From a virus: a stretch of DNA of 21,979 nt. The DNA is taken from positions 1 through 21,979 of IMG/VR virus record IMGVR_UViG_3300006028_000039; one strand, 5' to 3'. Made by a program: the position numbers and the translations under genes. Of the stretch, positions 4,212 through 21,979 are shown in pieces. Positions within the stretch are counted from its first letter, which is position 1. Each line of letters starts with the position of its first letter. Below the pieces are notes generated by a model. The model was not told the origin of the DNA, ran no database searches, and saw nothing but the letters and a program-made list of their open reading frames with translations.

Positions 4212-4311
4212 TCTTCTTGCCTTTCCGTGCCGGGTCCGGTAGCTCTATCTCTACCTGGACCGGATAGCGCTGGCCGTCCACGAGGACGGCTCCGTTAATT
4301 GTAACGGTCAC
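4183..4311 (-). CDS. Small hypothetical protein, 42 aa
   Basis: The ORF starts at the GTG at 4311, which overlaps the stop of the Ig-like gene upstream (GTGA), and ends with the TAG at 4183-4185. The protein begins with strands (MTVTINGAVLVDGQRYPVQV) and ends with a basic tail (RKGKKSARGKTDPS). Its function is unknown. The GTGA coupling, seen at several other junctions in this operon, is the main reason to accept so short a gene. It continues the run of small beta-rich proteins after the endolysin. Confidence 0.6.
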   Translation of the reverse strand: MTVTINGAVLVDGQRYPVQVEIELPDPARKGKKSARGKTDPS

Positions 4312-4586
4312 GGCACTACGGCGGTGAACTCCGCATCGCTACCGCCTTGCTGGAAGGTCAGGCCGTCGCAGGTCGGGACCTCGTACGAGACGTCTGCGGC
4401 CGGAGTTCCCGGAAGCGTAACCTGAGTGGTGACGTTGTAGGCCGTTTCCCCGACCACGACCTGTCCCCGGATCGTCGCACTGCTGGGATCCAGGGGATCG
4501 TTCCCATCGACAGAGTAGGTGACGGTAATGGTGTCGCCGTGGGCCGGAGCCGAATTGTCGACGTTGATATCACAGCTGACGGCCAC
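4308..4586 (-). CDS. Small Ig-like beta-sandwich protein, 92 aa
   Basis: I chose the GTG at 4586, three bases after the previous stop, with GCGAGG just upstream. Starts further 5' run through the preceding gene and give an Arg-rich, unlikely N-terminus. The protein alternates strands and turns: GDTITVTYSVDGNDP, ATIRGQVVVG, YNVTTQVTLPG, then VSYEVPTCDGLTF and DAEFTAVVP. This is the pattern of a single Ig-like domain, a fold common in phage structural and accessory proteins. Its position downstream of the lysis genes does not identify a function; it may decorate the virion. It has two cysteines (SCDIN and PTCDG). Confidence 0.65.
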   Translation of the reverse strand: MAVSCDINVDNSAPAHGDTITVTYSVDGNDPLDPSSATIRGQVVVGETAYNVTTQVTLPGTPAADVSYEVPTCDGLTFQQGGSDAEFTAVVP

Positions 4587-4588
4587 GG

Positions 4589-4810
4589 CTACCTCGCCTT
4601 GGGCGTAGAGCCCGGAGGCCCGGAGGCTGCTTCTGCGTCGTGCCGTCCCTCGTGCGCGTCCAGCTTGTCCGTCGAAACGAGCGCGAAGCAGGTTCCGCAC
4701 TGCTCGACTTCAACGCGGACCTCGCCGCCTCCCTCGTTGCTTGTGAGCGCGAACACCGCGAGGTAGCTTCCGTCTCGCGGTTCGCTTGGTACGACTGATG
4801 TAACATCCAT
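4589..4810 (-). CDS. Small zinc-finger-like protein, 73 aa
   Basis: The ATG at 4810 is preceded by AAGGGAG a few bases upstream. An N-terminal beta segment (SYLAVFALTS, then EVRVEVEQ) leads into CGTCFALVSTDKLDAHEGRH, a Cys-x2-Cys-x11-His-x3-His pattern that should bind one zinc. This resembles small C2H2-type proteins common in actinophage late regions, whose role is unknown to me. The tail (ASGPPGSTPKAR) is disordered. It lies 26 bases after the endolysin gene and is closely followed by the Ig-like gene. Confidence 0.7.
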   Translation of the reverse strand: MDVTSVVPSEPRDGSYLAVFALTSNEGGGEVRVEVEQCGTCFALVSTDKLDAHEGRHDAEAASGPPGSTPKAR

Positions 4811-6054: not shown

Positions 6055-6867
6055 CTAGAAGTCGAGTGGGTAACTGGCTCCGTCGATATAGCAGACGCCA
6101 CCGTTAATGGCGCCAGGGAATCCCTCTAGCTTGACCGTTCCATCGGTCCCGATATGCATCCTTGGGAGGCCGGGCGAGGTAGAGCTATTGCCATAGTCCG
6201 GCGACTGGGACATACTGACAATCGGAATGAACTTGTCGCCCTGCGGCCGGTAGATAGGCGGCATGGTCGCGATCGTAACGTTGTTGTATGACCCGGAGGT
6301 CGCGAGCTGGATCAGGCCGCCAAAGATAACCATCCGGTCCGGAGTCATCTTGTAATTGACGCCTCCGGTAAATGGGCCCGGAGCGCTGATCGTATGCCAC
6401 ACGTCGTTCAGGATCGTCTCCCGGTTATCGGTAAGGGCCGAGAGCGCGCCGGACGAGGCCGAGGTCCAGTAGCAGATAGGCAGGTCCCAGATCCCCGTAG
6501 GAGTCCGCTGAAGGACGGGCAGGACCGGCGAGCCGGACGGGCTCCCCTGGATGATCCAGGGCGCAACGACGGTTGGCGAGGTTGTGGCCCCACGGGTCAG
6601 CCGGAGGACGAGACGATCAATCCGGTTCTGTGCGGACGCAGCCGGGATCGCCGTGCTAAAGCTCGCGTCTGCGCGCCAGAGCTGCCCCCTGATAACCGCA
6701 TTCCCGGCCGCAGCGACAATGTTCCGGCCCGGAACATCGAATGAGGCAGTAAAGGCCCCAGGCCCGTCTACTGCGTCCTTGGCTCCGACGCACGAATGGA
6801 AATACTCCCATTCCGACGTTGTCGATAGCTGGGTGAATGAGCTAGGCCGTGCGTCGTATGTAGCCAT
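6055..6867 (-). CDS. Tail fibre / receptor-binding-like minor tail protein, 270 aa
   Basis: The protein combines an N-terminal beta-rich module, with GRNIVAAAGNAVIRGQLWRA and RIDRLVLRLTRG (about residues 48-90), with a GSPSGSPVLP / GIWDLPICYW segment. Modules of this kind recur near the start of actinophage minor tail and fibre proteins. The C-terminal half (from about residue 160) carries GPFTGGVNYKM and IFGGLIQLA, then GTDGTVKLEG, typical of fibre tips. It probably sits at the tail end and may contact the host surface. It starts with an ATG six bases after the Gp37-like gene and is the last tail gene before lysis. The receptor cannot be read from sequence. Confidence 0.75.
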   Translation of the reverse strand: MATYDARPSSFTQLSTTSEWEYFHSCVGAKDAVDGPGAFTASFDVPGRNIVAAAGNAVIRGQLWRADASFSTAIPAASAQNRIDRLVLRLTRGATTSPTVVAPWIIQGSPSGSPVLPVLQRTPTGIWDLPICYWTSASSGALSALTDNRETILNDVWHTISAPGPFTGGVNYKMTPDRMVIFGGLIQLATSGSYNNVTIATMPPIYRPQGDKFIPIVSMSQSPDYGNSSTSPGLPRMHIGTDGTVKLEGFPGAINGGVCYIDGASYPLDF

Positions 6868-6873
6868 GATTCC

Positions 6874-8151
6874 TCACTTAGTCGCTAGCTTTTTCTCCAG
6901 AGCGCGGATTCGCGCAGTCAGCTGGCCGATAACCTTCTGGTCCGTCGCCGTCGCGTTCGCGGAATTCCCGATGCTTGGGACAACGGAGTAAACCGGGTCG
7001 GCAGACGGGTCGGCCGTCAGCGTCACAGAGCTAATGACGTCCTGATAGGTAACTCCGGGCCGGACCTCTACCGTGACTATGTCACCTAGGTAATAGTCGC
7101 GGCCGAACGTCAGGAACGGGATATCAGCCACGGTCGCGTCAATGCTTGGGCCAAAGCCTCCGGCCGCGAGCGCTTGTTGAGCCGTGGCATTCAGGTTGTT
7201 CGCGTCCGTCTCGCCGGAGCTATCCGTATAAGCCTCAATCGCATTTAGGGCCGTCCGCGCGGCCGCAGTCTTCTGTACGAACGTAGTGGAGCCTCGCACA
7301 AGCGAGTCCGTAAGCGTCGGATCGGTCAGTGACAGGCTGACGGCCGTCAGGTTACCAAGGTCCCGGCTAAACCAGGCTTTGCCAGTAAGATTGCGCGGCA
7401 CATAGACGTCAAACTTAAGCCGCTTACCGGAGCGGTAGACCTGGACTCCCATCGCGGAGCCCGACTGCGCTATTAGTGCCCGGATCACATCCATGAGGTT
7501 GAGGCTTAGGTCCTGGAGGAACTTGACTGTATAGCTGACGAGGTTACCGCGCGAGGAGTCGGCCACGATATCCAGGAGTGAGTTCTTCCGGGCCGTAATA
7601 GCGCTCGGCCCAAGGTTGAGGTTCACATAGTGCTTAATGGCCGTCTCTAGCCGGACGGAGCTTACCGGGTCCGTGGCTCCAGCCGTCTGGGACGACCACG
7701 CCACGGCCGGATTAGGGTACGCAATCCGGTTCGCAACGAGGCCGAGGTAATCGGCTCCGCTCAGCGTAATGAACGGCCCGTTGACGGAGCCGGACCCGCT
7801 CCGCGAGCCCGGTATGGAATCCGTATAGCCGGGCTGCTCGCATTTACCGCCGAATACAAAGAGGCCGCGCCAGTTGATCTCCACGATAAAGTCTCCGGCC
7901 ATCATCTGAGCCCACAACGCGTCGGTATAGGGAACTACCATAGACCAGGAGCCGACCGCGTTGTAATAGAGCTGAGCCGTCAGCGTGACAAACTGGAGCG
8001 GGCCAAGCGCCACAAGCGAGCTATTGTAGAACTGGACGAGGACGGATTCCTGCGAGCCCGCCTGCGGAGGCACATAAGCCAGAGGCGGATTGAGTACTCC
8101 GCTCGCGGCGGATACGTTCTGGGTCCAGGCATCGACCGGGATGATTGCCAT
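6874..8151 (-). CDS. Gp37-like siphovirus tail protein, 425 aa
   Basis: The protein resembles the ReqiPepy6 Gp37-like family of tail proteins, which occupy the Tal/baseplate-hub position in actinophages. Seen: an early strand-rich region (SWSMVVPYTDALWAQMMAGD, WRGLFVFGGKCEQ), a central helical part with SLLDIV and FLQDLSLNLMDVIRALI, SGKRLKFDVYVPR, and a late YYLGDIVTVEV block typical of hub proteins. The tail (QKVIGQLTARIRALEKKLATK) is a short coiled coil. The ATG at 8151 overlaps the previous stop (TAATG), the same junction type as several neighbours; a GTG at 8166 is an alternative. It follows the Dit-like gene, as expected. Confidence 0.82.
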   Translation of the reverse strand: MAIIPVDAWTQNVSAASGVLNPPLAYVPPQAGSQESVLVQFYNSSLVALGPLQFVTLTAQLYYNAVGSWSMVVPYTDALWAQMMAGDFIVEINWRGLFVFGGKCEQPGYTDSIPGSRSGSGSVNGPFITLSGADYLGLVANRIAYPNPAVAWSSQTAGATDPVSSVRLETAIKHYVNLNLGPSAITARKNSLLDIVADSSRGNLVSYTVKFLQDLSLNLMDVIRALIAQSGSAMGVQVYRSGKRLKFDVYVPRNLTGKAWFSRDLGNLTAVSLSLTDPTLTDSLVRGSTTFVQKTAAARTALNAIEAYTDSSGETDANNLNATAQQALAAGGFGPSIDATVADIPFLTFGRDYYLGDIVTVEVRPGVTYQDVISSVTLTADPSADPVYSVVPSIGNSANATATDQKVIGQLTARIRALEKKLATK

Positions 8152-9044
8152 TATGCCCGCAGCCACCTATTCGTCCAGGTTACCGATATGCTGGTATTTA
8201 CCGTAGAGCCCGCCATAGTGATGTTAATCCGGTTGTCGCCGGCCATAAGGCTCCAGAGGTCCCGGAGCGTCGATAGCACAAGCTGGTCCCAGACGTTCGC
8301 GCTCGTTGTCAGGTTTACCGCGTACTGGGTTCCGGGCTTGGTCGTTACCTGAACTACCTGCCCGGCCGGGATAGAGGTATTCAGGGCCCATTGCCGGCCA
8401 GTCGTCAGGTTCTTAATTGTTGGGGTTCCGGGTCCGGTAATGTTCCAGATAGGCCAGGCCTGCGAGTTCCCCTGGTTCGTGATAACCGCATCGCCAAGGA
8501 TCGTCCCGCCCGTAATCGCGACCGGGAGGACCGGCAGGATTCCGGTCGCATTGTTGAGTGAGTAGACAAGGTTATTGGCAGCCAGGTCACTCCAGTATGG
8601 GTCCGGAGTCTGGAGCGTAAACGAGTAGAGGCAGGAGAACAATCCAACGTCCGGCGTATTCATCCCAGACGTACAGTAGACCGGAATCTGCCGCGTGGAG
8701 CCATCCGGCCTCTGGATCTGGATATAGCCCGGAGCCGGGAGCCCGTTCCGCCTATTGAAGAAGGCGCGCGTTAGCCGGTCCAGTATGTCATAGTAATCGT
8801 CCTGCGAGTCCGAGGCCGGGTAACCCACTCCAATAGCCAGCGCTATTGCGCCTGGCTGCGGCAGGACAAGGTTCGCATAAGCCGTCCCGTCAAGCATCGG
8901 AATGACCTGAAGCGCAGTCGGGAGTCCCTCAATACCAGCAATACCCGCGCAGGCATAGCCATTCGTCATTGACATGTCATTGAGGTCCCAGGTATTCCCG
9001 TCTGGGTCAATGTAGTAAATCCCGAGTGGGGTGACATCGCCCAT
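8151..9044 (-). CDS. Distal tail protein (Dit-like minor tail protein), 297 aa
   Basis: The gene immediately follows the tape measure, overlapping its stop by one base (TAATG), with GGAGG upstream of the ATG at 9044. Upstream in-frame starts (to 9212) give an Arg-rich shadow of the tape measure and are rejected. The first ~135 residues (GIYYIDPDGNTWDL to PVYCTSGMN) contain a NRRNGLPAPGYIQIQRPDGS segment, followed by FSFTLQTPDPYWSD-like text (here YSFTLQTPDPYWSDL), which is common in actinophage Dit/minor tail proteins. The C-terminal half is a galectin/jelly-roll-like region (ITNQGNSQAWPIWNITGPG, TIKNLTTGRQW). It would form the ring joining the tail tube to the tip. Confidence 0.82.
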   Translation of the reverse strand: MGDVTPLGIYYIDPDGNTWDLNDMSMTNGYACAGIAGIEGLPTALQVIPMLDGTAYANLVLPQPGAIALAIGVGYPASDSQDDYYDILDRLTRAFFNRRNGLPAPGYIQIQRPDGSTRQIPVYCTSGMNTPDVGLFSCLYSFTLQTPDPYWSDLAANNLVYSLNNATGILPVLPVAITGGTILGDAVITNQGNSQAWPIWNITGPGTPTIKNLTTGRQWALNTSIPAGQVVQVTTKPGTQYAVNLTTSANVWDQLVLSTLRDLWSLMAGDNRINITMAGSTVNTSISVTWTNRWLRA

Positions 9045-11749
9045 TAGGACCTCCGTCCCTGACGCTGTAGGCTGCCGTCCGTAATCGCCATTGCGGTAAA
9101 GGCCGACCGGACATGGCTCTCTATGGCGGCTCCGGTCAGGCCGTCGAAGTGAGCGTGATAAGCTACTGCGGAGCCGTCGCCTCCGCGTGGCCGGCCTCCG
9201 GGGCTGACCCATTCCGGCCCGCGCTCGCCAAACCTATACATTAGGCCGGTACCTAGGCCGAACCCGACGATGGGCTCTGTAACCGGGCCTCCGTCCGCGT
9301 AGCCGTGGCCGGAGCCTAGGGCTCCGAGCCCTGGCCCATAGACGTGCCTCGCGTAGTTAATGGCGGCTGCGATATTCGCGAGCGGGTCATAGATATTCCA
9401 GCTCGTGCCCGGTACGTGATAGGCGGCAAAGGTAGAGCCGATTACCTGCATAAGTCCCTTGGACGGGTCGCCTCGCTTAGCGTTTATGTCCCACAGGTTA
9501 ATGGCATTCGCATTGCCTCCGCTCTCCGTTTGCATCTGATAGAGGACCCGGCCAAGAAGAGCCTGGGACATACCAAGCATTGACAGAGCCTGGGACGCGA
9601 CTCCGGACCAGCGTGAGACTCCGCTACCGCCACCGCCTCCGATAAGGTGACTAAAGAAGCTGCCGAGAGAATGCCAAGCGGAGCTAACAAAGCTCGTTAG
9701 CTGACTCAGTACCGACTTATGAATGCCGGCCGCACTCGGGATATGGAGCCCTGGGATAAGTCCTCCGGCCGCGAATCGCTTGGTACGGATAGCCTCCATG
9801 AAATCGATCCCGTAATGGCTAACGGAATCAGCAGGCTGCATAAACTCACCGCGAGAGGCCCATATAGGCACATCGTCCGCGCGAGGTCCGGAGCCCCAGG
9901 GAATCAGGCCTCCTGATGCCTTCCCGTACTGGGACCGGAAAGCGGGCGAGGCTATTGACTGCTGGGCCGGTGCCATCTTGACGCCGACATTGATTGTGCG
10001 GTCATGGATTCCCGCGAGCGAGCCATTCACATTATCCCGGAAGCCATTGAACTTATTGGAGGCATCCCGGAGCTTGCCGCCGATACCGGGAATCCAGCCG
10101 AACGCCCAGGAGGCCGCCTGGAGTATCTTGCCGAATACCGTATGGACGACATCCCACATACCATTGATGGCATTCTTGATAAAGGTCATCCCGCTATGCC
10201 AGAGCCCGGTAATGAAGTTGATCGTATTGCTCCAGGCCTTGTGGATAGAGCCACAGACGGAGTTCCAGACGGACTCGATCTGATGCCCGGCCGCTACCCA
10301 GAAGTTGATAAACGCGCTCCACACCCTGTGAAGGAAATTGACCGTAGCCGACCACGCATTATGAATAGCGCCGCAAGTACGGTTCCAGGCTGCCTCGATC
10401 TGGTGGCCCGCGATTACCCAGAAGTTTATGAAGGCCGACCAGGCCCGGTGAATCGAGTTCGTCATTACGGTCCAGGCCGTCGCCATTGCATGCGTTACAT
10501 TGTTCCAGGTAACGGCCATCGAGTGGATGTTCTGGCTAAATCGGCCGGTCATATAAGCCGCAAGCTCCGTCAGGACCGCAAGCGCCCGGAGCACAAAGAC
10601 AATCAGCTGAACGAAAAAGTTAATCAGCTTAGCAAAGGCCTGTGGGTGCTGCGAGATTGTTGTGGCTATCTGGGTGATAGCGTTTGCTATCTCACGCATC
10701 CAGCTTGACACCTGGGGCGTAATGGCATTAAGCATCGCAGCAAAGGCGACGGCGATTGCCTGAATCGACTGCTGTACCTCTGGCTGACCGAAGGCCCGGA
10801 TAAACGTATCGGCAAACTGCCGGAACGGCCCGGCAATCGTATTAGCCGCGTGCTCGAATACCGGCGTCAGCTTATCCATAGTCTGCCGCGCGGTATTGAG
10901 TATGCTCTCTAGGACGTTAACCCAGGACTGCCCGATTATCTCAAGGTCCTCCATAACGCGGTCCTTGAGGCTCGTAAACGTCGCCACGACCTCGGGATTG
11001 CGGGCTGCGCCGATAGCCGCCATCCCTCCTATCATGCCGCCGAATCCCGCGACGATAAGGCCGCTTGTGGCCTCCGCAATAAACGGGAGCGCGAGCAGGC
11101 CCAGGGCTCCGGCGACGGCCATAGCCATCGGGCTCCCGGTAATCCCGCTCGCGGCCTGGCCGCCTGATCCTCCGGCTCCCGACCCAACCATCCCGATAGC
11201 ACCCAGCATACGGGTGGCGAGGCCGAGCCCGGCCTGGTCGCCGGTTTGATTGGCCTCGTGCTTTAGCAGGGCCAGCTGAGCGCGGGCCTCCACCGTATTG
11301 AACCGGACATCGATATTGCCGGCCTTCCTGGAGACAACGTCAAGCTCTTTCTCCAGGACTGCGATTTCCTTTAGCGCGGCATCCGACTTAATGTCAATGC
11401 CGATCTGCTTCTGGGATAGCGCGACTAGCTTAAGGCGTATCGCCTCCACCTTGCGGTCAACCGGGGAGGAGTCGCCGTCCAGCTTGACCTTTGGAAGCGT
11501 CTTGATAGCGGCCTCAATACGCTTCTTGAATGTGTCCGCGAATGCGCCTCCGGACCTCGCTCCCTCTGCGGCCATCTCCGGCCGCTTACGGCCCATCTCA
11601 TCGACAATGCCCTTGGAGAGCCTCTGGCCGTATTCCTTCCCGATCGCATCAGAGGACGGAATGAGGTCAGCCGCAAGCTTGCGGTTCCAGCCGCGAGCGT
11701 CCGGGACTACGCCAACGGCGACGGAGCCTACAAAAATCTCGTCAGCCAT
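9044..11749 (-). CDS. Tape measure protein with lytic transglycosylase domain, 901 aa
   Basis: This is the longest tail gene after the chaperones. It has a charged helical N-terminus, a glycine-rich hydrophobic region (about residues 205-250), and a long helical, Trp-rich middle with tandem repeats. A GGGGG linker near 705 leads to an SLT-like domain (about 711-820). There LYQMQTESGG places the likely catalytic Glu at 742, followed by GDPSKGLMQVI and YDPLANIAAAINYA, both typical of lysozyme-like transglycosylases. The product sets tail length and probably cuts peptidoglycan during DNA entry. The ATG at 11749 overlaps the chaperone T frame by 8 bp and has GAAGAGGA upstream. At about 3 residues per 4.5 angstroms, a tail of roughly 130 nm would be expected if the whole helix spans the tube. 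Confidence 0.95.
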   Translation of the reverse strand: MADEIFVGSVAVGVVPDARGWNRKLAADLIPSSDAIGKEYGQRLSKGIVDEMGRKRPEMAAEGARSGGAFADTFKKRIEAAIKTLPKVKLDGDSSPVDRKVEAIRLKLVALSQKQIGIDIKSDAALKEIAVLEKELDVVSRKAGNIDVRFNTVEARAQLALLKHEANQTGDQAGLGLATRMLGAIGMVGSGAGGSGGQAASGITGSPMAMAVAGALGLLALPFIAEATSGLIVAGFGGMIGGMAAIGAARNPEVVATFTSLKDRVMEDLEIIGQSWVNVLESILNTARQTMDKLTPVFEHAANTIAGPFRQFADTFIRAFGQPEVQQSIQAIAVAFAAMLNAITPQVSSWMREIANAITQIATTISQHPQAFAKLINFFVQLIVFVLRALAVLTELAAYMTGRFSQNIHSMAVTWNNVTHAMATAWTVMTNSIHRAWSAFINFWVIAGHQIEAAWNRTCGAIHNAWSATVNFLHRVWSAFINFWVAAGHQIESVWNSVCGSIHKAWSNTINFITGLWHSGMTFIKNAINGMWDVVHTVFGKILQAASWAFGWIPGIGGKLRDASNKFNGFRDNVNGSLAGIHDRTINVGVKMAPAQQSIASPAFRSQYGKASGGLIPWGSGPRADDVPIWASRGEFMQPADSVSHYGIDFMEAIRTKRFAAGGLIPGLHIPSAAGIHKSVLSQLTSFVSSAWHSLGSFFSHLIGGGGGSGVSRWSGVASQALSMLGMSQALLGRVLYQMQTESGGNANAINLWDINAKRGDPSKGLMQVIGSTFAAYHVPGTSWNIYDPLANIAAAINYARHVYGPGLGALGSGHGYADGGPVTEPIVGFGLGTGLMYRFGERGPEWVSPGGRPRGGDGSAVAYHAHFDGLTGAAIESHVRSAFTAMAITDGSLQRQGRRS
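10211..10450 (-). repeat. Tandem 120-bp (40-residue) repeat inside the tape measure gene
   Basis: Residues 434-473 and 474-513 of the tape measure are near copies: HRAWSAFINFWVIAGHQIEA against HRVWSAFINFWVAAGHQIES, followed by AWNRTCGAIHNAWSATVNF against VWNSVCGSIHKAWSNTINF. Each half shares a 20-residue IHxAWSxxxNF pattern. The DNA copies begin exactly 120 bases apart but are diverged. Such units are a plausible way to change tail length in steps. Confidence 0.8.
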
Positions 11750-12559
11750 TTCCTCTTCCCGTCATCCGGTCTAGCACGTCCTGTACGTCCTCGTCCGGGA
11801 CATCGCGCAGCCTAGGGTCTAGGGTCCGTACGATATCCAGGTTCAGGACCCTAGCGGGCTTCCTACGGCTCGCTCCGGGCCTCCGGACCGGCTCCGGCCT
11901 AGGGACCTTAGAGTCTGTCCGGCTCTGGACCTGGACCCAGGTAAGGTTGCGCACCTCGTCTATGAGTAGGGCCAGTAGCGACTCTAGGCTGGACCACGAT
12001 GCGCGCTCCGGCTCGAACTCCCTGGAGAATAGCTCATCCTCCGGGATTGAATTCCGCATCGCGGTTGCCAAGGCACTCTCCGGTGGAAGATGGTCCACAA
12101 GGACCAGAAGCCGTCGCCACGATAGCCCGGCTCCCAGCTCGCGGAAGTCGGTGTGATAATAACGCTGGAGATCTGCTTCTATCTCCTCCGGGAACGCTTG
12201 CGTGAGCTGCCAGGCCTGGATGATTTTCCCATCGTCATCCGGGCCTTGTGGCCGCAGGTCTGGAAGATCGCCTCAATCTGGAAGTTCTCCAGATCAGCAT
12301 CGACCCACGCGCCGAACTCCTCTTTGTCCGCGATTACCTCCTGGGCCCATTGTTCCCAGTCGCCGGTAGAGGCCGCACGCATAGCCGTACTCGACCAGGA
12401 GGCCGCGTGGCTAATGTGAATAACCACGCCGTCAATCCGGACTGATGTAGGCTCGCCCACGCGTTCCGCGCGGAGCTTATCGCCCACGAGGTCTAGGTCA
12501 AGGTCTACTTCCTCCGGGCCGTCATCCTCTAGCTCGCTGCCGAGCGGGCTGACGCTCAC
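11742..12559 (-). CDS. Tail assembly chaperone GT fusion made by -1 frameshift
   Basis: The fusion reads gene G from the GTG at 12559 through the slippery site at 12230-12224. It then moves back one base and continues in the T frame from 12224 to the TGA at 11742-11744. This gives about 272 residues: 112 from G and 160 from T. After the slip the protein reads GKIIQAWQLTQAF, then YYHTDFRELGAGLSWRRLLV, a very typical chaperone T segment. The T frame is open back past the slippery site with no convincing start of its own. The C-terminus is basic then acidic (SRRKPARVLNLD to DVPDEDVQDVLDRM). Like lambda gpGT, it should bind the tape measure protein and recruit major tail protein during tail assembly. 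Confidence 0.88.
12179..12559 (-). CDS. Tail assembly chaperone G-like protein, 126 aa
   Basis: The GTG at 12559 overlaps the major tail protein stop (GTGA). An upstream in-frame ATG at 12598 would place 13 out-of-character residues in front. The protein is acidic at the start (ELEDDGPEEVDLDLDLVGDK), has a helical core (WEQWAQEVIADKEEFGAWVD, then NFQIEAIF), and ends after the slippery codons in a basic tail (SSRPGSSRKRSRRR). That tail looks like read-out of a frame not under selection. Most ribosomes would make this short form and a minority the GT fusion. Position between major tail protein and tape measure is the standard one for this gene. Confidence 0.88.
   Translation of the reverse strand: MSVSPLGSELEDDGPEEVDLDLDLVGDKLRAERVGEPTSVRIDGVVIHISHAASWSSTAMRAASTGDWEQWAQEVIADKEEFGAWVDADLENFQIEAIFQTCGHKARMTMGKSSRPGSSRKRSRRR
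12224..12230 (-). promoter_or_regulatory. Programmed -1 ribosomal frameshift slippery site GGGAAAA
   Basis: On the minus strand the zero frame reads ATG GGA AAA TCA, so the heptamer is G GGA AAA, a perfect X XXY YYZ site close to the GGGAAAG of lambda G-T. The zero frame stops about 50 bases later, and the -1 frame continues for 160 codons up to the tape measure start. Confidence 0.88.
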
Positions 12560-13230
12560 GTGAAGTATCCCGTCATGTCCTTGCCGTAATCGATCCACCG
12601 CTTGGCGACGTAGATAGAGCCCGATACGTTACCGGGGTACATCGTGACGGTTAGGTCCGTCCCGGTAACGTCGGCCTGCTGGATCTGGTCGTTGCCGCGA
12701 GCGGTAACCTTGACGTTGGGCGCGTACAGGCGCATCTTCTTCACGCCATCGAATGAGTCCCAGATCATCGCATAGCGGTTGTCCGCAGGCGGGTCCGGGA
12801 TCGTGTAGCTGGCGATGAACGGCGTGACGGTGGCGGCCTTGAGAGGCGAGGTCGTGACCGGGAATACCGGCACGTCATCGTAAAGGCTCCGGACGTACGG
12901 ATTGAGGTATTCCAGGCAGGTCATCTGGACGCTCTTGGAGCCTCCGGTCAGGATCGTCCGGATAGGCGTCAGGGTACCGGCCGCCGGAATGTCCTTGACC
13001 GTCTCGTCCAGCTTGAAGATGTAGCCGGAGGTATCGATCCACCCCATACAGTAGTAGCCGGTAAGGGTGGTGATATCCTCAAACCCGGTAACCGGGCCTG
13101 CGGTATTCTGGGCCGCGAGCCAGCAGATTACGTCTCCGGCCGCGTAGAGGAGTGAGTTGTCCTTCTGCTTTCCTGGCCCTGCGACGAGAGGGTTTACAGC
13201 GTCGAATTCCTCGACATCGTTTGACACCAT
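12556..13230 (-). CDS. Major tail (tube) protein, 224 aa
   Basis: The gene sits between tail terminator and chaperones, the expected place for the tube subunit. The ATG at 13230 has a near-perfect AGGAGGA directly upstream, in keeping with a highly expressed protein. The sequence is beta-rich: FEDITTLTGYYCMGWIDTSG near residue 49, an ILTGGSKSVQMTCLEYLNP strand pair (92-112), and IASYTIPDPPADNRYAMIWDSF with KKMRLYAPNVKVTARG (139-178), a typical actinophage tube pattern. The end (IYVAKRWIDYGKDMTGYFT) overlaps the chaperone start. Subunits stack as rings around the tape measure. Confidence 0.88.
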   Translation of the reverse strand: MVSNDVEEFDAVNPLVAGPGKQKDNSLLYAAGDVICWLAAQNTAGPVTGFEDITTLTGYYCMGWIDTSGYIFKLDETVKDIPAAGTLTPIRTILTGGSKSVQMTCLEYLNPYVRSLYDDVPVFPVTTSPLKAATVTPFIASYTIPDPPADNRYAMIWDSFDGVKKMRLYAPNVKVTARGNDQIQQADVTGTDLTVTMYPGNVSGSIYVAKRWIDYGKDMTGYFT

Positions 13231-14945: not shown

Positions 14946-16133
14946 CTACTTGGTAGACCGGCCGGAGGACCTGCGGCTGGAGCCGGAGTCGTCCTCGTCA
15001 TCGGAACTGGAGGCGACGGCCTGACGTTCCTCTTCTGCCTTCTGCCTTTCTTCAAGAATGGTCCGCTCCCACTCCGATCGCGTCATAACGGCCTCGCCGC
15101 CTTCAGCTGACGCAAGAGCCGGAGTTGAGGTCGGGTAGGCCTGCTTGACGTCAATGACGCCACCGGCCGGAGGCGCGGTGCCGACGCCAAGGACCGCGCC
15201 GAACGGCCAGCGAGCCGTAATCGCGGAGCCGGGCTGCATGATCGTGACCGGGTTGACGGTCGCGTAGGCGAGGCGCATTGTCATCCGCATCGCCACGGAG
15301 TCCTGCTGCATCAGGTTCAGGATAACGGCTCCGGCGTCATTCGAGATGACGCCTTCTGTGAACATCTTGAAGCTAATATCGCGCCGGATTCCGATGATCG
15401 ACTTGGAGAAGTCGCCACCGAGCATGATCGCTCCGGTAGTCGGCATAACCCACGAGCCGTTCTTGATCTCCGGGAGCGGGTAGCCGTAGAGCGTCCCGCC
15501 CGGCCCACCGGACATATCCGGCTGGTAGATCGGGATACCCTGCGCGGAGCGGAGGCCGGAGAGCTTCCACTTCATGCCTGGCATGGCCGCGAAGCCATCC
15601 AGGGTATAGCCGGACTGGGCCATCGTCAGGCCGAGCGCGGAAACGTCCTGGCCCAGGTCCACGCCTGTGCCTTCGATGACGGAGTGCCCGGACTTGGTTG
15701 CGCCGACGAATACCGACTCACCCCAGGTCGAAGGCTTGTTGATTCCCCACAGGACGGCCGAGTCGATAAGCGCGCCCACGGCCTCCGTAATGCGAGGCTT
15801 GACCTGGTCCCACAGCGGCACGTCCGCGTCGTCCAGGTACGCTTCCGGGATCGGGACGATACAGGCCAGCTCTTCCACGACCATTACGACGTTCTTCCAC
15901 GCCTGGGCCGAGGTCTGCTTCATGCCGGTGTCGCCGCCAACCCAGTAGGCGACCGGAAGAACGTCAAGAACCGGGAGCCGCTGAGTGTGGGATGAAAGGG
16001 TGGTACGCCCCATGAGCGAGAGCGCGGCCGAAGCCTGGGGCGCTTCCTGAATGATCTCTGTTGCGAGCGGCTGTGGAACGAGCGGGTCAACTCCGGCCGC
16101 TGTGCGGACTACACCCGTATTGTAAGTCGGCAC
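14946..16133 (-). CDS. Major capsid protein, HK97 fold, 395 aa
   Basis: The gene starts with GTG at 16133; GGAAAGG lies about eight bases before it. The N-terminus (residues 1-50) has LATEIIQEAPQASAALSLMG, the usual N-arm. The E-loop/P-domain region contains LPVLDVLPVAYWVGGDTG and WKNVVMVVEELACIVPIPEA (51-98). Then come LWDQVKPRITEAVGALIDSA, YPLPEIKN and a final AYATVNPVTIMQPGSAI (about residues 305-325). These are typical of actinophage capsid subunits. No protease gene is visible nearby. After the fold a charged tail of about 50 residues follows (EWERTILEERQKAEEERQ, then an Asp/Ser/Arg-rich end), which is longer than usual. The gene follows the scaffold across a 41-bp gap. Confidence 0.93.
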   Translation of the reverse strand: MPTYNTGVVRTAAGVDPLVPQPLATEIIQEAPQASAALSLMGRTTLSSHTQRLPVLDVLPVAYWVGGDTGMKQTSAQAWKNVVMVVEELACIVPIPEAYLDDADVPLWDQVKPRITEAVGALIDSAVLWGINKPSTWGESVFVGATKSGHSVIEGTGVDLGQDVSALGLTMAQSGYTLDGFAAMPGMKWKLSGLRSAQGIPIYQPDMSGGPGGTLYGYPLPEIKNGSWVMPTTGAIMLGGDFSKSIIGIRRDISFKMFTEGVISNDAGAVILNLMQQDSVAMRMTMRLAYATVNPVTIMQPGSAITARWPFGAVLGVGTAPPAGGVIDVKQAYPTSTPALASAEGGEAVMTRSEWERTILEERQKAEEERQAVASSSDDEDDSGSSRRSSGRSTK

Positions 16134-16174: not shown

Positions 16175-16798
16175 CTAGTCTCTCTGATAGAGAGACCGGA
16201 ACCACTCGTCTGAGGTCCGGGGTTCTGCGCCTCCGGACGGAGCGGAGCCAGCTCTCATGGACTCAACCGGGCGTGCGCCGTTCCGGCCCATCCCTGGCTG
16301 CTGGAGAGACTGTTCAGTCCGCTCCCGTACGATCTGATCGGCTCGCGCCTCTGCTAGCTCTGTGGCTCTCGTTTCGATCGCCGCAGCAATAGCGGCTGCC
16401 CTATCATTGATCTCCTCGTCCGTTCCGGTCCCGAGGAAGTCAATAAGCTCTGTAGGCAGGTCATTCGTAGCGGCGGCCATAATCCGCGCGTGGTCGGCTC
16501 GCGCCTCGTCCCGCTCGCGCTTGGCCTCGTCCCGTTCGGCCTGGGCTTTCTCCAGGTCGGTCATTCCTTGCTTCTTCAGTTCCGCGAGTTCCTTTGCGGC
16601 CCTGGAATTCTCCCGCGCCCGGCTCTCATTCTTCCGGGCCATTTCCTTCCAGTGAGCTAGCTCAGCGGCGGTATCCGCTCCACCCTCATCCGTTCCGGTC
16701 AGGGTGTCTGAGCCTTCTGGGTCCGTTCCGGTTCCCTGGCTTCCATCATCGAGCTGTGCCGTTCCGGTTCCAGTCGATTCTGGGGCTGCCTCACTCAT
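16175..16798 (-). CDS. Capsid scaffolding protein, 207 aa
   Basis: The protein has the usual scaffold layout: a disordered acidic Gly/Thr-rich start (residues 1-45), a long charged coiled coil (about 46-105, LAHWKEMARKNESRARENSR and on through KAQAERDEAKRERDEARADH), a middle helix, and a short C-terminus, DEWFRSLYQRD, that would contact capsid subunits. It guides assembly of the capsid shell and is then lost. The ATG at 16798 has AGGGAG eight bases upstream. It sits just before the capsid gene, and a 66-bp gap with possible signals precedes it. Confidence 0.92.
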   Translation of the reverse strand: MSEAAPESTGTGTAQLDDGSQGTGTDPEGSDTLTGTDEGGADTAAELAHWKEMARKNESRARENSRAAKELAELKKQGMTDLEKAQAERDEAKRERDEARADHARIMAAATNDLPTELIDFLGTGTDEEINDRAAAIAAAIETRATELAEARADQIVRERTEQSLQQPGMGRNGARPVESMRAGSAPSGGAEPRTSDEWFRSLYQRD

Positions 16799-16864: not shown

Positions 16865-17128
16865 TTAGTGGCCCTTAGCCTTGGCGGCTGCCTCCTCTAC
16901 TCCTGGGGCGTGACCCGGCCGGGCTCCGGTCGCGCGCTGATGGAGATTGGAGCAGAGTCCCTTGACGATTCCGGGACTCACATATTTACCAAGCTCCACG
17001 ACGCACCGGTCAAAATCTCCGGGTACGCCCCAGCGGATCTTCGCGGCTCCGGGTCCGTGGGCCCAGTACTCCATGAGCCTCTGGGTGTTCTTAACATCCT
17101 TGGGGCTCGCTTCCCGCCCGGCTACCAT
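16865..17128 (-). CDS. Conserved actinophage-style hypothetical protein, 87 aa
   Basis: The ATG at 17128 overlaps the preceding gene by 7 bp. The protein reads RLMEYWAHGPGAAKIRWGVPG, then DFDRCVVELGKYV, GLCSNLHQRATGARPGHAPG and an Ala/Lys-rich end. The pattern EYW...G.GAxKIRWGxxGDFxRC...GxCxNLHxRxTGxxPGxAP is familiar from small proteins of actinophage head regions, but I know no function. Two cysteines and a histidine could bind metal. It is the last gene before the scaffold gap. Confidence 0.75.
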   Translation of the reverse strand: MVAGREASPKDVKNTQRLMEYWAHGPGAAKIRWGVPGDFDRCVVELGKYVSPGIVKGLCSNLHQRATGARPGHAPGVEEAAAKAKGH

Positions 17129-17454
17129 AACACTGCCTCCACCAGGAGCGGACCGCAGTTAGCGGTCCGGCGTTTATTGAGGACATCCACACAGTCGACC
17201 CGCCACCAGAATGAACCAGTAAGCCCGGTATCGGCAGCAGGCACATCGAACTGTGATATTGACTGGCCCACGTTATCCGGGTCCGATACGACATCCGAGG
17301 AGTAGACCCGGACGGCCGGGTCATCGTCATCAGTATCCCGGCTGGGCTTGGTATACAACTCTGAGGTTATCCCGGTACCGTCGCTAATCTCCGGGAACCG
17401 GGCTGTCACGACAACGTCATTCCCACGCGGGAACACGAGGCCGGTCTGATCCAT
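17122..17454 (-). CDS. Small beta-rich structural protein, 110 aa
   Basis: The ATG at 17454 overlaps the stop of the repeat gene (TAATG) and has a perfect GGAGGTGA upstream. The sequence is strand-rich: GLVFPRGNDVVVTARFPEIS, AVRVYSSDVVSD, QSISQFDVPAADTG, GSFWWRVDCVDVLNKRRTAN and GPLLVEAV. The start, a strand then RGN, resembles the Ig-like N-terminal modules of BppU-type and other virion attachment proteins, a likeness I cannot confirm. It may partner the repeat protein upstream, since the two are translationally coupled. Confidence 0.65.
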   Translation of the reverse strand: MDQTGLVFPRGNDVVVTARFPEISDGTGITSELYTKPSRDTDDDDPAVRVYSSDVVSDPDNVGQSISQFDVPAADTGLTGSFWWRVDCVDVLNKRRTANCGPLLVEAVLW

Positions 17455-20228
17455 TAGGTCACCTCCGCGTGGAGCTTGTCTATCGTTACCCGTCCAGTCA
17501 TAGCGTCCGTCTCAACGCTGGCCGGAGTCCGGCCGACCTCGACATTAGCGGATATACTGGACACGCCTATCGTAACCCGAGGACCGCTGACCACGAATAC
17601 GATAGCAGTTATCTTGTCGGGTAGGGCTCCGGCGACGAACGCAGTAACCGACCCATCCGCAGACGAGGCCGCGACGGCAAGCCCGGAGAGGATGCCCAGG
17701 ACGGTAACATGGCCAGAAGCTCCGGAGGCCGCGAGGCCGGAGCCCGCGAGGACGAGGACGGCCGAGACGGCACCTGACGCCGCTGAACGGGCCGTAGCGG
17801 CTCCGGAGAGCCGTCCGGCGAGTACGACCGTACCGGAGCCGGTAGAGGCCGCTAGGGAGCTTCCGGCGAGGACCCCAGTCAGGCCCATCGTCCCGGCCGC
17901 GAGCGAGGCCGCGACGGAGGATCCAGCCAGCGGCCAGGTTACCGCTCCGGTCTGGATCGCTACCGCGCCGGACCCGGCTGAGGACGAGGCCGCAGAGCCC
18001 GCAATAACTGCCGTCCGGGTTATGGTCCCGGACGCAGAAGTCTGGGCCGTAGCGGAGCCGGAGACGGCTCCCCTGAGCGCTACGGTCCCGGCCGCAGAAG
18101 AGGCCGATGACGCTGAGCCGGCCAGGGCTCCGTTGAGGCTCAGCGTCCCAGAAGCGGATGAGACCGGCAGGGAGGTCCCAGCCACTGGGTAGGTCTGGGC
18201 TCCGCTTACGATCGTGAGCGTGCCAGACCCCTGAGACGTAGTGGCGGATGCTCCCACCATTTGGGAGATGGTGCCCAGCGTTCCTGTAGCTGAGCTAGCC
18301 GAGGCAGAGGAACCCGCCACCACGCCGATTTGCCCTACAGCGCCATTAGCCGCTGAGGAAGTAATTGAAGAACCTGATATCAGGGCTGTCCGGGTAACCG
18401 TCCCATTAGCCGCAGAAGCACACGGAGCCGAACCCGCGATGACTCCATTGAGGCCCATCGTGCCGTTCGCGGACGAGGCGGACGGAGCGGAGGCTGATAT
18501 CACCATCGTCTGGACGATGGACCCGGAGGCCGGAGTGGCATTTAGCGTAAGGCCTGATATCAGGGCCGTCCGGGTTACCGTACCAGCCGCACTAGACGAG
18601 GACGCTCCGGAGCCCGTCACTACCAGCGGACTGAAGTTGCCCGTGGCCGACGAGGACGAGGACCCGGAGCCCGCAATTATGGCGGTCCGGGTAATGGTCC
18701 CGTTCCCGGCCGACGCGGACGGAGCCGAGCCAGCAATGACAGTGTTCCAGGTAATCGTCCCAGAACCAGACGAGGACGACGGAGCCGAGCCCACAAGCGC
18801 GCCCAGAGTGCTGAGCGTCCCGCTCGCCGTCGCGGCCGATGCGCCGGAGCCCGACAGCTGGATCGTCTGCTGAATCAGGACGCCAAGCGTATGGCTTGTG
18901 ACAGACGAGAAACAGGTCATGTTCGGAGCCGTACCCATAAGCCCGGCCGCCATACCAGACCCGTACATGAATGGGTTGGCATTCGAGTCCATAATGCCGT
19001 CAAAGCCAGCCGGTACAAATACCTTGTATGGGGCTCCGGCCGGCACACGAGCCCGGCCGATGAATATCTCATTCGCCAGGGAGGCTGTCAGGGCATTCCA
19101 GCTAATGGCCGTGGAGGCCGTTGTATTGTTCTTGCTTGACTGCTGAGTGCCGTCCCGCGCGAACGTCGATGGATATCCATTATAGAATTCAGCAAAGGTC
19201 GTGTCACAGCTAGTGGACCCAATAGTGGCGCTATAGGTAAAGTTGAGAGTCGTTGCCCCGGTCCCGGTCGATACGCCAATCCAGATATCCTGAGTATGCG
19301 GAGTGCCATTCGTGTCCGTATAGGGACCGGCGACCTTAGTCCAGCCAGAGGTAATCCCGGCCGTATCCGACACACCGCTCATATTGATCGTACTGCTCGC
19401 AGTCTTATGCGCGACGGCCAGGAGCGAGCCGACGTTGCTAACCTGAACTCCCAGCGTTCCCTGGCCGGAAGATCGCGAAACAGAATATGGATAGGCGACG
19501 GGATTAATCAATCCAGCCGGAGGAGTCGTGGACCCACCCTTCCAGCCCATTATGACGCCGCAGTAGACAATGTTAGACGGGAAGGTACAGCTTGAGGTAT
19601 CAGTAAAGACTCCGGCCGTCGAGACTCCGGTGCCGTTTGTGGTTGGCGTAAGATGAGAGGAGACAAAGTGCTGGCTCTGGGAGAAGAATGTATCCGACTG
19701 GCCTATGCCAGTCATATTGGAACTCTTGCTGTAGGTACAGGTACCGGCCGTTGTCATCCAGGTCGCATAAGCCGAGATGATTACTTCATTGGGATCGGTT
19801 GGGGCAGCTGTGGTCGCGACCGATAGCGAGGTCTTGCTGGCCGCCGTAGTCCCACCGCTAAGCGTCCCGCTGATCTCGGGTATCTCGGAGGCCGCGTTGA
19901 ATATCTCATAGACGATCGTCTGGCCGGTCCAGCTCGCATTGTAGGTAAAGCTAGGAGCTGGCTCAGAGGCTCCGGCTATCTTGGTCCAGACCGCGAGCCC
20001 GATCGTACTGGCCGTATTGGCCGCATCATTGCCAACCTGGAAACGGCGGGTCCAGCCAGAGGTCCCGGTGTTCTGGGCCGTGTTGAAGGCTCCGGCCGTC
20101 CCGAACCCGGCCATGACTATTGCTACCAGAAGGTTGCCTGCGGTTGGGGATGGGCCATAGTTGACCGAGCCAGGGCTAGTTCCTCGCGCCCCAGCACCCC
20201 AGCCGATAACCTGCTGATAGAATGTCAT
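17454..20228 (-). CDS. Large repeat-rich virion protein, 924 aa (fibre or head-decoration candidate)
   Basis: The ATG at 20228 overlaps the previous stop (TAATG). Three parts are visible. First, two related beta-sandwich-like domains (about residues 1-235 and 240-457), sharing the series GNLLVAIV / GSLLAVAH, SGWTRRF / SGWTKVA, LAVWTKIAG / IWIGVSTG, PSFTYNASWTG / LNFTYSATIG and YEIFNA / AEFYNG. Second, about 20 tandem 20-residue Ser/Ala/Gly repeats (458-865). Third, a strand-rich tail (866-924, ITAIVFVVSGPRVTIGVSS). There is no signal peptide or membrane segment. The gene lies in the head module between MuF and scaffold, not with the tail tip genes. A capsid-attached fibre or decoration is the best reading; a displaced tail fibre is the alternative. 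Function is inferred only from composition and context. Confidence 0.78.
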   Translation of the reverse strand: MTFYQQVIGWGAGARGTSPGSVNYGPSPTAGNLLVAIVMAGFGTAGAFNTAQNTGTSGWTRRFQVGNDAANTASTIGLAVWTKIAGASEPAPSFTYNASWTGQTIVYEIFNAASEIPEISGTLSGGTTAASKTSLSVATTAAPTDPNEVIISAYATWMTTAGTCTYSKSSNMTGIGQSDTFFSQSQHFVSSHLTPTTNGTGVSTAGVFTDTSSCTFPSNIVYCGVIMGWKGGSTTPPAGLINPVAYPYSVSRSSGQGTLGVQVSNVGSLLAVAHKTASSTINMSGVSDTAGITSGWTKVAGPYTDTNGTPHTQDIWIGVSTGTGATTLNFTYSATIGSTSCDTTFAEFYNGYPSTFARDGTQQSSKNNTTASTAISWNALTASLANEIFIGRARVPAGAPYKVFVPAGFDGIMDSNANPFMYGSGMAAGLMGTAPNMTCFSSVTSHTLGVLIQQTIQLSGSGASAATASGTLSTLGALVGSAPSSSSGSGTITWNTVIAGSAPSASAGNGTITRTAIIAGSGSSSSSATGNFSPLVVTGSGASSSSAAGTVTRTALISGLTLNATPASGSIVQTMVISASAPSASSANGTMGLNGVIAGSAPCASAANGTVTRTALISGSSITSSAANGAVGQIGVVAGSSASASSATGTLGTISQMVGASATTSQGSGTLTIVSGAQTYPVAGTSLPVSSASGTLSLNGALAGSASSASSAAGTVALRGAVSGSATAQTSASGTITRTAVIAGSAASSSAGSGAVAIQTGAVTWPLAGSSVAASLAAGTMGLTGVLAGSSLAASTGSGTVVLAGRLSGAATARSAASGAVSAVLVLAGSGLAASGASGHVTVLGILSGLAVAASSADGSVTAFVAGALPDKITAIVFVVSGPRVTIGVSSISANVEVGRTPASVETDAMTGRVTIDKLHAEVT
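17634..18857 (-). repeat. Array of about twenty 20-residue (60-bp) repeats
   Basis: Within the 924-aa protein the pattern hxGSAxSxSxAxGTxxxxxh recurs about every 20 residues, for example LVGSAPSSSSGSGTITWNTV, IAGSAPSASAGNGTITRTAI and LAGSASSASSAAGTVALRGA. The TRTAxI variant recurs in five or six units, whose DNA shares GTCCGGGT on the plus strand. Two units carry five extra residues (AQTYP and AVTWP). The repeats are diverged at DNA level. Each could form two strands of a beta-solenoid or spiral. Confidence 0.85.
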
Positions 20229-20512
20229 TAGGCCAGCCTAAGCGGAGTCCAGTCAATCCGCCTGATCCGGGCCTGGGAAACTCCTCCCCGCCGCGCGCAG
20301 TCGTGACAGGTAGCTCCCCCGCAGGCGACGATCGCCGCATGAATGCCACAAAGCCAGATCTCCCTGGCGTGGCTCGGAATACCACAGCTCCGCTCATAGA
20401 GGCTCGCCGGAGTCGCGCCGCAGACCGTCTCGTCCTTTCCGGTCCAGGCCCCACAGGGATGCGCGCGAGCCACCCGGAGGTCCGGGACAAGCGGGCTTAT
20501 GGGGTGATCCAT
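20228..20512 (-). CDS. Cys/His-rich putative zinc-binding protein, 94 aa
   Basis: I chose the ATG at 20512, one base after the previous stop; longer in-frame starts give an Arg-rich shadow of the gene before. The protein has seven cysteines (20, 31, 43, 55, 64, 69, 72) and histidines near them, with HPCGAWTG, RSCGIPSH, WLCGIHAA and ACGGATCHDC. Two zinc sites are plausible, and CHDC near the end looks like a zinc knuckle. It lies between two structural genes, and its stop overlaps the repeat gene start (TAATG). Its role is unknown. A structural zinc or nucleic-acid contact are both possible. Confidence 0.65.
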   Translation of the reverse strand: MDHPISPLVPDLRVARAHPCGAWTGKDETVCGATPASLYERSCGIPSHAREIWLCGIHAAIVACGGATCHDCARRGGVSQARIRRIDWTPLRLA

Positions 20513-20513: not shown

Positions 20514-20978
20514 TTATACCTGGCAGAGGAACCCGATACCGGCCGACCCAGTACCCGCCGCCGCCTGAAGGCTGTCACCGATCGCCGGAGTCCGCGAGGA
20601 CGCGAGGAGGAACGCCGCAATACAGTTCGCGGACGTACCGGAGGCCGCGTCACAGCAGATCCCCCAGTTACAGGTTCCGGGAGCGCTCGTGAACGGTCCC
20701 CAGGTTAGCGAGGCCGTATTGTAGATGACGGACGGCGAGGCCGACGTAGCCAGAGCCGGGCCGTAGGACTGGCGCGCGTAGCCGGTCGATGTAAGGTACT
20801 CATTGATGGATGCGTCGGCCATCGTCAGGGCCGTAGAGCTAAGGACCCCAGACGTGGCCGAGGTCGATAGGGCCATGTAGACCGCGCCAATGGCCGGGCT
20901 CTGCGTCTTACGGAATACGGCCTCAAGGGCCTGCTTCTCCCCGTACTGCATAAGCTGGCCGGCTGAGAGTAGTGGCAT
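20514..20978 (-). CDS. Gp80-like phage structural protein, 154 aa
   Basis: The ATG at 20978 has AGGAGGAG just upstream. The pattern follows a family widespread in actinophages, usually annotated as a tail-fibre or Gp80-like protein: an N-terminal helix (EKQALEAVFRKT), IGAVYMALSTSATSG, EYLTSTGYARQSYGPA, a NTASLTWGPFTSAPG strand, WGICCDAASGTS, and an end IGDSLQAAAGTGSAGIG. It is a beta-rich virion protein of unknown place. Its neighbours suggest it belongs with the large repeat protein in the head module. Confidence 0.72.
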   Translation of the reverse strand: MPLLSAGQLMQYGEKQALEAVFRKTQSPAIGAVYMALSTSATSGVLSSTALTMADASINEYLTSTGYARQSYGPALATSASPSVIYNTASLTWGPFTSAPGTCNWGICCDAASGTSANCIAAFLLASSRTPAIGDSLQAAAGTGSAGIGFLCQV

Positions 20979-20987: not shown

Positions 20988-21257
20988 CTAGACTCGCGTG
21001 AAATTCGACGCGAAGTAATCGGGCTCTATTGCGGTAATGCGATTGATTCCCAGGTCATCGACCCAGGCGACGAGACGCCAGCCGGCATCGTCATCTTCCA
21101 TGTACTGGACCACAGCTCCGTTCTTAAGGTCCAGGGCATGCATTTCGGCTGATAGCTCCTCACCCTTGGCCGCATGACCGTAGCCGGTCCCGGCCGGGTT
21201 ATCGTGCATGAACTCGTCTCCGGGCTCTACAGCCGGAGCCTGTGGCTCTTCAGTCAT
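20988..21257 (-). CDS. Hypothetical protein, 89 aa
   Basis: I chose the ATG at 21257, seven bases after the previous stop, with GGAAGTGAG upstream; an earlier in-frame start at 21314 would overlap the previous gene. The first 45 residues are acidic and disordered. The second half is beta-rich: LDLKNGAVVQYMEDDDAGWR, LVAWVDDLGINRITAIEPDY. This resembles small SH3-like domains, but I cannot assign it. It lies in the block between MuF and scaffold. Confidence 0.65.
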   Translation of the reverse strand: MTEEPQAPAVEPGDEFMHDNPAGTGYGHAAKGEELSAEMHALDLKNGAVVQYMEDDDAGWRLVAWVDDLGINRITAIEPDYFASNFTRV

Positions 21258-21264
21258 AATGCGC

Positions 21265-21522
21265 TCACTTCCAGCTATCTGGGATATCAGCCATCCATCC
21301 ACGGGCCTTAGCAACCCGCTTTATGTAGGCACGGATCTTGGCGTGCTCCTCTGGGGTATTGGGCCGGGCTCGCCCGACAGCCTTGATTGCCGATGCTAGT
21401 GAGTTATCTCCGGTCCTCCTCTCAATGGGGAATCGCGGTGCGTCCGACTGGTTCTGACTTGACGGAGGGAGTGCCCGGCCTTGCCGCTGGAGACGCTTCC
21501 TCTTTTCCAGGTCCGTTGCCAT
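21265..21522 (-). CDS. Small basic helical protein, 85 aa
   Basis: The ATG at 21522 has GGGAG about eight bases upstream. It overlaps the 3' end of the MuF-like gene by 101 bp, in another frame. The start is basic and disordered (EKRKRLQRQGRALPP). The end has helices NSLASAIKAVGRARPNTPEE and HAKIRAYIKRVAKARGWMAD, then IPDSW. The AKIRAYIKRVAKxxGxxxxIPDxW ending recalls short helical segments often found at the ends of phage head proteins and proteases. Here it stands as its own gene. Its role is unknown. Confidence 0.68.
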   Translation of the reverse strand: MATDLEKRKRLQRQGRALPPSSQNQSDAPRFPIERRTGDNSLASAIKAVGRARPNTPEEHAKIRAYIKRVAKARGWMADIPDSWK

Positions 21523-21979
21523 TCTGGCTCTCCCAGTACTTGTTCCATTGAGCTACTGCGGCCTTACCCCGGAATCCTCGCGTCTCACGGCCCCACGCAT
21601 CCGACAGCTCCGCATTGATGGATGTCTGTCCCCGGAATACCGGCCGCGCGACACACCGGCAATGATCGTGCGCCCGGAACCCCACAGAGGCTTCTGTATA
21701 GACTCCTCCGCGCCCGGCCAGCATAGCGCAGAAGCCACAGGAGCCCGGAGTCAGGACCCGCTCCCATCCTGTAGCCTCCGGGTCCTGCGTCGCGGCCTTT
21801 GTAATCGTCTCGCGGCCACCGAGCAGGACCATCCGGGTACCGGCTCCCCGGAGCCCATCCCGCGCCATTACGGAAGCCTGGGCGGGCTCCGCGTCCTTCA
21901 GGTAATGGCGGTACATCCCGGAGCCCATCGACCCGACTACGCGAGCGAGGTACTCAGGGTCCAGGTCCGCGCCCGGAAC
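21422..21979 (-). CDS. MuF-like minor head protein, 5' partial
   Basis: The frame is open to the right edge, giving 185 visible residues; the start lies outside. The ATG at 21928 is in frame but 17 codons follow the edge before it without a stop, so it is not taken as the start. The central PGSCGFCAMLAGRGGVY, then FRAHDHCRCVARPVF, is the Cys-x2-Cys...His-x-His-Cys-x-Cys signature of actinophage VG15/MuF-like proteins, likely a zinc site. Such proteins sit inside the head near the portal, and the portal and terminase genes are expected to the right. The C-terminus (residues ~155-185) is disordered, Pro/Ser-rich, and overlaps the next gene. Confidence 0.87.
   Translation of the reverse strand, partial: VPGADLDPEYLARVVGSMGSGMYRHYLKDAEPAQASVMARDGLRGAGTRMVLLGGRETITKAATQDPEATGWERVLTPGSCGFCAMLAGRGGVYTEASVGFRAHDHCRCVARPVFRGQTSINAELSDAWGRETRGFRGKAAVAQWNKYWESQNGNGPGKEEASPAARPGTPSVKSEPVGRTAIPH

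Follow-up and report, generated by a model that had tools for sequence, protein, structure and literature searches.

A modular family of fibre-like proteins encoded in the head operon of siphoviruses, with a candidate Ig-like docking partner

The head operon of a siphovirus was found to encode a 924-aa fibre-like protein that belongs to a real, unannotated and modular family. The window, meaning the whole stretch of DNA that was analysed, is a 21,979-base virus record (IMG/VR IMGVR_UViG_3300006028_000039), and its gene content identifies the phage as a siphovirus. The explanation that best fits the sequence comparisons is that the gene would encode the adhesin of an exchangeable cassette between the MuF and scaffold genes, anchored at its C terminus together with an Ig-like protein and placed most likely on the capsid or neck. 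We consider that this explanation has an even chance of being right.

The minus-strand head part of the window runs from MuF to capsid in the order listed below, and after the capsid gene come connector genes, the major tail protein, tape measure, Dit, tail-tip protein, a 270-aa fibre and lysin.

21422..21979, minus strand: MuF/VG15 head protein (PF25310, 8e-23); 5′ end lost at the contig edge
21265..21522, minus strand: 85-aa protein, kept in the fibre and spike clades
20988..21314, minus strand: 108-aa protein, kept in the fibre clade
20514..20978, minus strand: Gp80-like 154-aa protein (PF23140, 7e-12)
20228..20512, minus strand: Cys/His-rich 94-aa protein, conserved in the fibre clade; start most likely at 20512
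17454..20228, minus strand: fibre-like protein P0001, 924 aa; intact ORF with 30 IMG/VR relatives
17122..17454, minus strand: 110-aa Ig-like beta-sandwich protein (AF2, Foldseek), candidate link protein; 1-nt overlap with the fibre gene
16865..17128, minus strand: 87-aa protein (phrog_6439)
16175..16798, minus strand: scaffolding protein (phrog_1793)
14946..16133, minus strand: major capsid protein (PF05065, 2e-22)
6874..8166, minus strand: minor tail (tail-tip) protein, conserved in 8/9 relatives irrespective of head-slot type
6055..6867, minus strand: tail-module fibre-like protein (270 aa), conserved in 8/9 relatives with any head-slot type

The initial annotation had placed a large beta-rich fibre-like protein inside the head module, in the order MuF, small genes, repeat protein, scaffold and capsid. 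The 924-aa ORF is indeed exact and intact with an ATG start, its place is conserved in many diverged contigs, and the order was borne out by Pfam and PHROG matches. The Gp80-like protein scored 46.2 bits against a curated PF23140 cut-off of 27 and is 70-90% identical among relatives. A further fibre expected downstream of the tape measure is present at 6055-6867, though the named PHROG families it matches are annotated as 'virion structural/head protein'. Elsewhere in the window, two ORFs ahead of the tape measure (11742-12598) resemble a tail assembly chaperone pair, in which a programmed frameshift usually joins both ORFs; a small Ig-like looking protein without a Pfam or PHROG match lies directly past the lysin (4308-4700); and a plus-strand ORF (1-2265) resembles, by eye, a portion of a DNA polymerase III alpha subunit of the bacterial type.

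The host is likely actinobacterial, because the capsid relatives (~45% identity) are mostly actinobacteriophages and the cultivated relatives of the phrog_6439 87-aa protein come nearly all from actinobacterial hosts. A profile search of genome contigs with the Gp80-like alignment returned a single chance-level match of 29 residues, and thus neither a prophage nor a named host. The cassette was absent from Muddy, JacoRen57, ReT1v-1 and Bridgette, the nearest cultivated phages by capsid.

The fibre-like protein divides into four segments:

19521..20228, minus strand: D1, exchangeable beta-rich N-terminal domain (residues 1-236; phmmer to L034 and L031)
18855..19520, minus strand: D2, beta-rich N-terminal domain (residues 237-458); the homologous domain is a separate gene in L049
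17631..18854, minus strand: ~20 units of a 20-residue repeat (residues 459-866; autocorrelation against shuffles, alignment)
17457..17630, minus strand: C-terminal 58 residues (867-924; alignment), the last ~40 being the minimal 'anchor' of L037 and L039

The protein had initially been described as a 924-residue repeat protein. The repeat is real but covers only residues ~459-866 (44%), and the first half consists of two non-repeat beta-rich domains, which share weak profile similarity with each other (hhalign probability 75, E 2.5e-5, in a single pairwise test). The repeat unit follows the pattern GSxxxxSxASG with a strict 20-residue period. Lag-20 identity was 0.346 in residues 460-872, compared with a mean best-lag value of 0.18 and a maximum of 0.217 in 500 shuffles. 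Glycines at 10-residue spacing make up most of the invariant columns in the family alignment, with a serine ~6 residues past every second glycine, and the repeat would probably form an elongated structure. The C-terminal tail is short, rich in V, T and A, and ends in HAEVT. In comparison with the 93%-identical relative L003, silent codon differences outnumbered amino-acid changes in both D1 (33 silent, 7 changing) and D2 (40 silent, 8 changing), and the N-terminal half is therefore under purifying selection as part of a real protein. The fibre combines a repeat architecture with an exchangeable tip domain.

The fibre protein had no match in Pfam, PHROG, PDB or INPHARED, and no known head-fibre family was related to it by sequence. 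Likewise, tblastn against cultivated phages gave no match with the N-terminal half, the 110-aa protein or the Gp80-like protein as query, and none with the repeat half, for which the low-complexity filter may hide matches. A search of the open-access literature found no description of the fibre family or of the slot. Structure prediction, proposed at the outset as a check, succeeded for the 110-aa protein (see below) but not for the full-length fibre, where AlphaFold2 gave a mean pLDDT of 36.6 and did not resolve the fold, a trimer or a binding domain.

The fibre protein as query recovered only three close contigs, and the 110-aa neighbour recovered 39 IMG/VR loci, in 30 of which a repeat fibre lies directly upstream of the 110-aa gene. 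By our own grouping, with redundant contigs set aside, these 30 loci represent ~19 diverged groups. In nearly all of them the fibre stop overlaps the 110-aa start by 1 or 4 nt; the exceptions are L034, where 77 nt separate the genes, and two loci (L004 and L038) in which longer overlaps arise from mechanical ORF ends. Wherever the contig suffices, the fibre clade has the order portal, MuF, 85, 108, Gp80, Cys/His, fibre, 110, (87), scaffold and capsid, so that the comparison of gene order in relatives suggested earlier yielded a conserved slot between MuF and scaffold. Full-length fibres range from 534 to 1179 aa, with an estimated ~18-44 repeat units judged by length, the upper value coming from L042 and including an inserted non-repeat domain. 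In that 1179-aa fibre (L042 4459-7998) a second lectin-like domain is apparently inserted among the repeats. The major capsid gene of the near-identical contigs L042-L044 is present as two ORFs of 103 and 274 aa, possibly through a frameshift, an intron or an error.

The N-terminal module was the variable part of the family. Two domains precede the repeats in the window, L034 and L031; a single domain of another type does so in L025 and L036, and nearly nothing in L026, L032, L048 and L052. In L049 a double domain homologous to residues 11-455 of the window fibre is encoded by a separate upstream gene, and L052 and L015 have their own beta-rich genes in this position, which are probably separate N-terminal domains. 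In L049 a methyltransferase-like ORF (3637-4260, sub-threshold in Pfam) separates the Cys/His gene from the stand-alone gene for the N-terminal domains. The window N terminus matched that of L034 at E 3e-55, though the capsids are 67% identical, and that of L024, whose 5′ end is cut, at E 3e-10 with capsids at 84%; it was undetectable in L015 and L025 despite capsid identities of 79% and 74%. The best match of the L024 N terminus was L049, whose 110-aa protein is 50% identical. N-terminal similarity thus departs from the phage backbone, and the pattern is one of domain exchange. The repeats, the C-terminal tail and the 110-aa protein are the constant parts across relatives, and the N-terminal domains are swapped, split off or absent. 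A variable N terminus with a conserved C terminus is an unusual polarity among phage fibres.

The C-terminal tail is also the part that outlasts the fibre. In L037 and L039 the fibre is missing, and an ORF of ~40 codons matching the fibre C terminus directly precedes the 110-aa gene (L037 anchor ORF: MTMPDELTAVVFINEAPQVEVSTGEIETVVTVDSVSAEVT). Alignment of the window with L003 shows a drop in nucleotide identity to 77-85% across the C-terminal tail and the 110-aa gene (17180-17780), compared with ~94-97% in most flanking stretches. Because the anchor is kept without the fibre and the two parts diverge jointly, the comparisons suggest a common function for the C-terminal tail and the 110-aa protein, although the joint divergence is equally what a recombination patch would produce. 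The pairing of the fibre with a coupled Ig-like protein, put forward initially, gained in this way from the gene overlap, the common divergence peak and the anchor retained beside the 110-aa gene after fibre loss, and the conserved pair constitutes a small candidate docking unit. A second dip in identity between the window and L003 (79%) lies inside the Gp80-like gene at 20780-20929.

AlphaFold2 run on 27 sequences gave the 110-aa protein a mean pLDDT of 91.3 and a beta-sandwich. The fold class is solid, the function read from it weak: this confidently predicted Ig-like beta-sandwich resembles phage fibre-anchoring domains. No Pfam match was found. In a library of viral structures (BFVD, Foldseek) the model had 98 matches at E <= 1e-3; most were small phage proteins that are uncharacterised, and several proteins of the minor tail or fibre kind and a single 'BppU N-terminal domain' protein were also among them. 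Against solved structures nothing fell below 1e-3, and the best phage entries were baseplate proteins and a neck. Tetrasphaera phage TJE1 was among the fold matches, its matching gene not being firmly identified. The 110-aa gene is neither part of the tail module nor fused to the fibre, since every fibre-clade locus whose contig extends far enough has it between fibre and scaffold.

A different occupant of the slot was found in a second clade. Six loci, L045, L046, L047, L051, L053 and L054, lack the genes for the Gp80-like protein, the Cys/His protein and the repeat fibre and keep the 110-aa and 85-aa proteins. Where the contig permits, a large protein follows the 87-aa gene, and in L046, L047 and L054 (557, 861 and 1435 aa, respectively) it precedes the scaffold. 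All three contain a PF12708 pectate-lyase-like beta-helix (55-98 bits, cut-off 27), a domain that the Pfam profile search did not find in the window's fibre protein. Collagen repeats occur in L046 and L047 and laminin-G-like stretches in L047 and L054, and the L046 protein matches tail spike PHROGs. A 154-160-aa protein ahead of the spike matched phrog_1084 and, in two of the three, phrog_3304 'L-shaped tail fiber protein assembly'; two of these adaptors had sub-threshold scores to the Pfam LtfC beta-sandwich, and in a profile comparison the spike-clade adaptor showed no relation to the 110-aa protein. The occurrence of two unrelated adhesin types in one interval speaks for an adhesin slot there. 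The Gp80-like protein and the Cys/His protein, tentatively grouped with the fibre at first, probably do belong to the cassette, since the spike clade lacks them along with the repeat fibre, but L037 and L039 keep both without a fibre. The gene for Gordonia KidneyBean gp21, beside a phrog_6439-like gene (L057 6941-9237, upstream of the terminase), was considered as a parallel to the slot and set aside as an unrelated minor tail protein.

A place on the head or neck is favoured by the position of the gene, by its being conserved amid head genes, and by a tail tip that stays the same: the tail-tip protein and the 270-aa fibre were found in eight of nine relatives, including the spike-carrying G003. 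(In two genomes the alignment of the tail-tip homologue, G002:C1:47178-48476 and G009:C1:21696-22994, runs through one in-frame TAG.) Attachment to the tail is possible because the adaptor proteins resemble baseplate and tail-fibre anchors, and it is mainly from tails that beta-sandwich proteins of the BppU and LtfC types are known. We hold it rather unlikely that the protein is a side tail fibre of the baseplate that is merely encoded in the head operon, with the 110-aa protein as a stand-alone BppU-type ring protein. The solved phage structures that best match the 110-aa model include the 80alpha, NF5 and Douge baseplates, but at weak E values of 2e-3 to 7e-3 and intermixed with immune receptors and antibodies. 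The phrog_3304 match of the spike-clade adaptor points to the tail, and tail adhesins can lie off the tail module, as does KidneyBean gp21, annotated as a minor tail protein and encoded before the terminase; against this, the MuF-scaffold position is conserved and the tail-tip proteins do not change with the occupant of the slot. Distances of the 110-aa protein also tracked those of the capsid (partial r 0.41) more than those of the major tail protein (0.21), which map linkage explains equally well. The capsid-attached fibre of the initial annotation is accordingly graded as plausible, with gene position favouring head or neck and adaptor folds best known from tail baseplates.

Within the head-or-neck reading, a neck or collar fibre like that of Anabaena phage A-1(L) is an unlikely sub-case. 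That phage has five bead-chain fibres on a pentadecameric neck protein (PMC10966104); the Gp80-like gene falls in PF23140, a family named for the podophage GP4 fibre protein, although this membership is at domain level only, and the slot-type spike weakly matches the 'pre-neck appendage' family phrog_4775, but no neck ring protein of the A-1(L) kind was identified within the window. That the protein is non-structural or internal to the capsid, for example ejected with the DNA or an assembly factor, would suit its place among head-assembly genes and is very improbable, as the repeat stalk, N-terminal swapping and replacement by tailspikes are typical of exposed adhesins.

Comparison with known systems gave partial likenesses. 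The phi29 gp8.5 and Andhra/P68-type gp13 fibres are head adhesion fibres, and that of Andhra has a short 44-residue beta-prism anchor on capsid hexamers (PMC9710869); the window fibre has no sequence match to them, its putative anchor is C-terminal rather than N-terminal, and it combines a 20-residue repeat stalk with a phage carrying siphovirus tail genes. Agrobacterium phage 7-7-1 has long flexible capsid fibres with an Ig-type linker protein as their proposed base (PMC12796354), but the protein that makes up its fibre is unidentified. The modular arrangement of a beta-sandwich anchor and a fibre recurs in 80alpha FibL/FibU and TP901-1 BppU. FibU, a BppU-type domain joined to a collagen-like fibre, is dispensable in the laboratory (PMC7048315), and the 110-aa model aligned with 80alpha baseplate chains at TM 0.60-0.62. 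There, anchor and fibre are one polypeptide of the tail module, whereas the window encodes its Ig-like protein as a gene apart, within the head module. The A-1(L) neck fibre and GP4 fibre I share the multi-gene plan of anchor, repeat and distal sugar-binding part, with a Gp80-like domain nearby. The A-1(L) fibres are three-gene bead chains whose distal sugar-binding module did not bind the host (PMC10966104), and their beads consist of a small protein present in many copies, in contrast to one long repeat polypeptide. In L046, L047 and L054 the genomic slot is filled by collagen/pectate-lyase tailspikes, which have no sequence relation to the repeat fibre. In Rosebush, gp17 forms a protruding decoration whose role is unknown (PMC7150772).

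In the preferred explanation, a cassette adhesin on the capsid or neck, the fibre would be a homo-oligomer, probably a trimer, fixed to the virion by its C-terminal tail and the 110-aa Ig-like protein. The N-terminal beta domains would point outward and bind a host-surface glycan or other ligand in an early, reversible contact, and committed adsorption would be left to the conserved tail tip of Dit, tail-tip protein and 270-aa fibre. A collagen/beta-helix spike, or the anchor alone, would be the alternative content of the slot. The C-terminal anchor, N-terminal exchange, spike alternative and anchor-only loci are additions to the initial annotation. Tentatively, and with less confidence than in this explanation as such, we propose that siphoviruses possess a capsid-borne adhesin cassette of reversed polarity, in which a ~40-residue C-terminal tail sits on an Ig-like capsid-link protein, unrelated adhesins share one slot of the head operon, and the capsid serves as a swappable adhesion platform.

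Receptor binding by siphoviruses is normally looked for at the tail tip only. If the cassette is carried on the head or neck, these phages would have a second, fast-exchanging adhesion system besides the tail tip, one that genome annotators would miss because the cassette proteins match no family.
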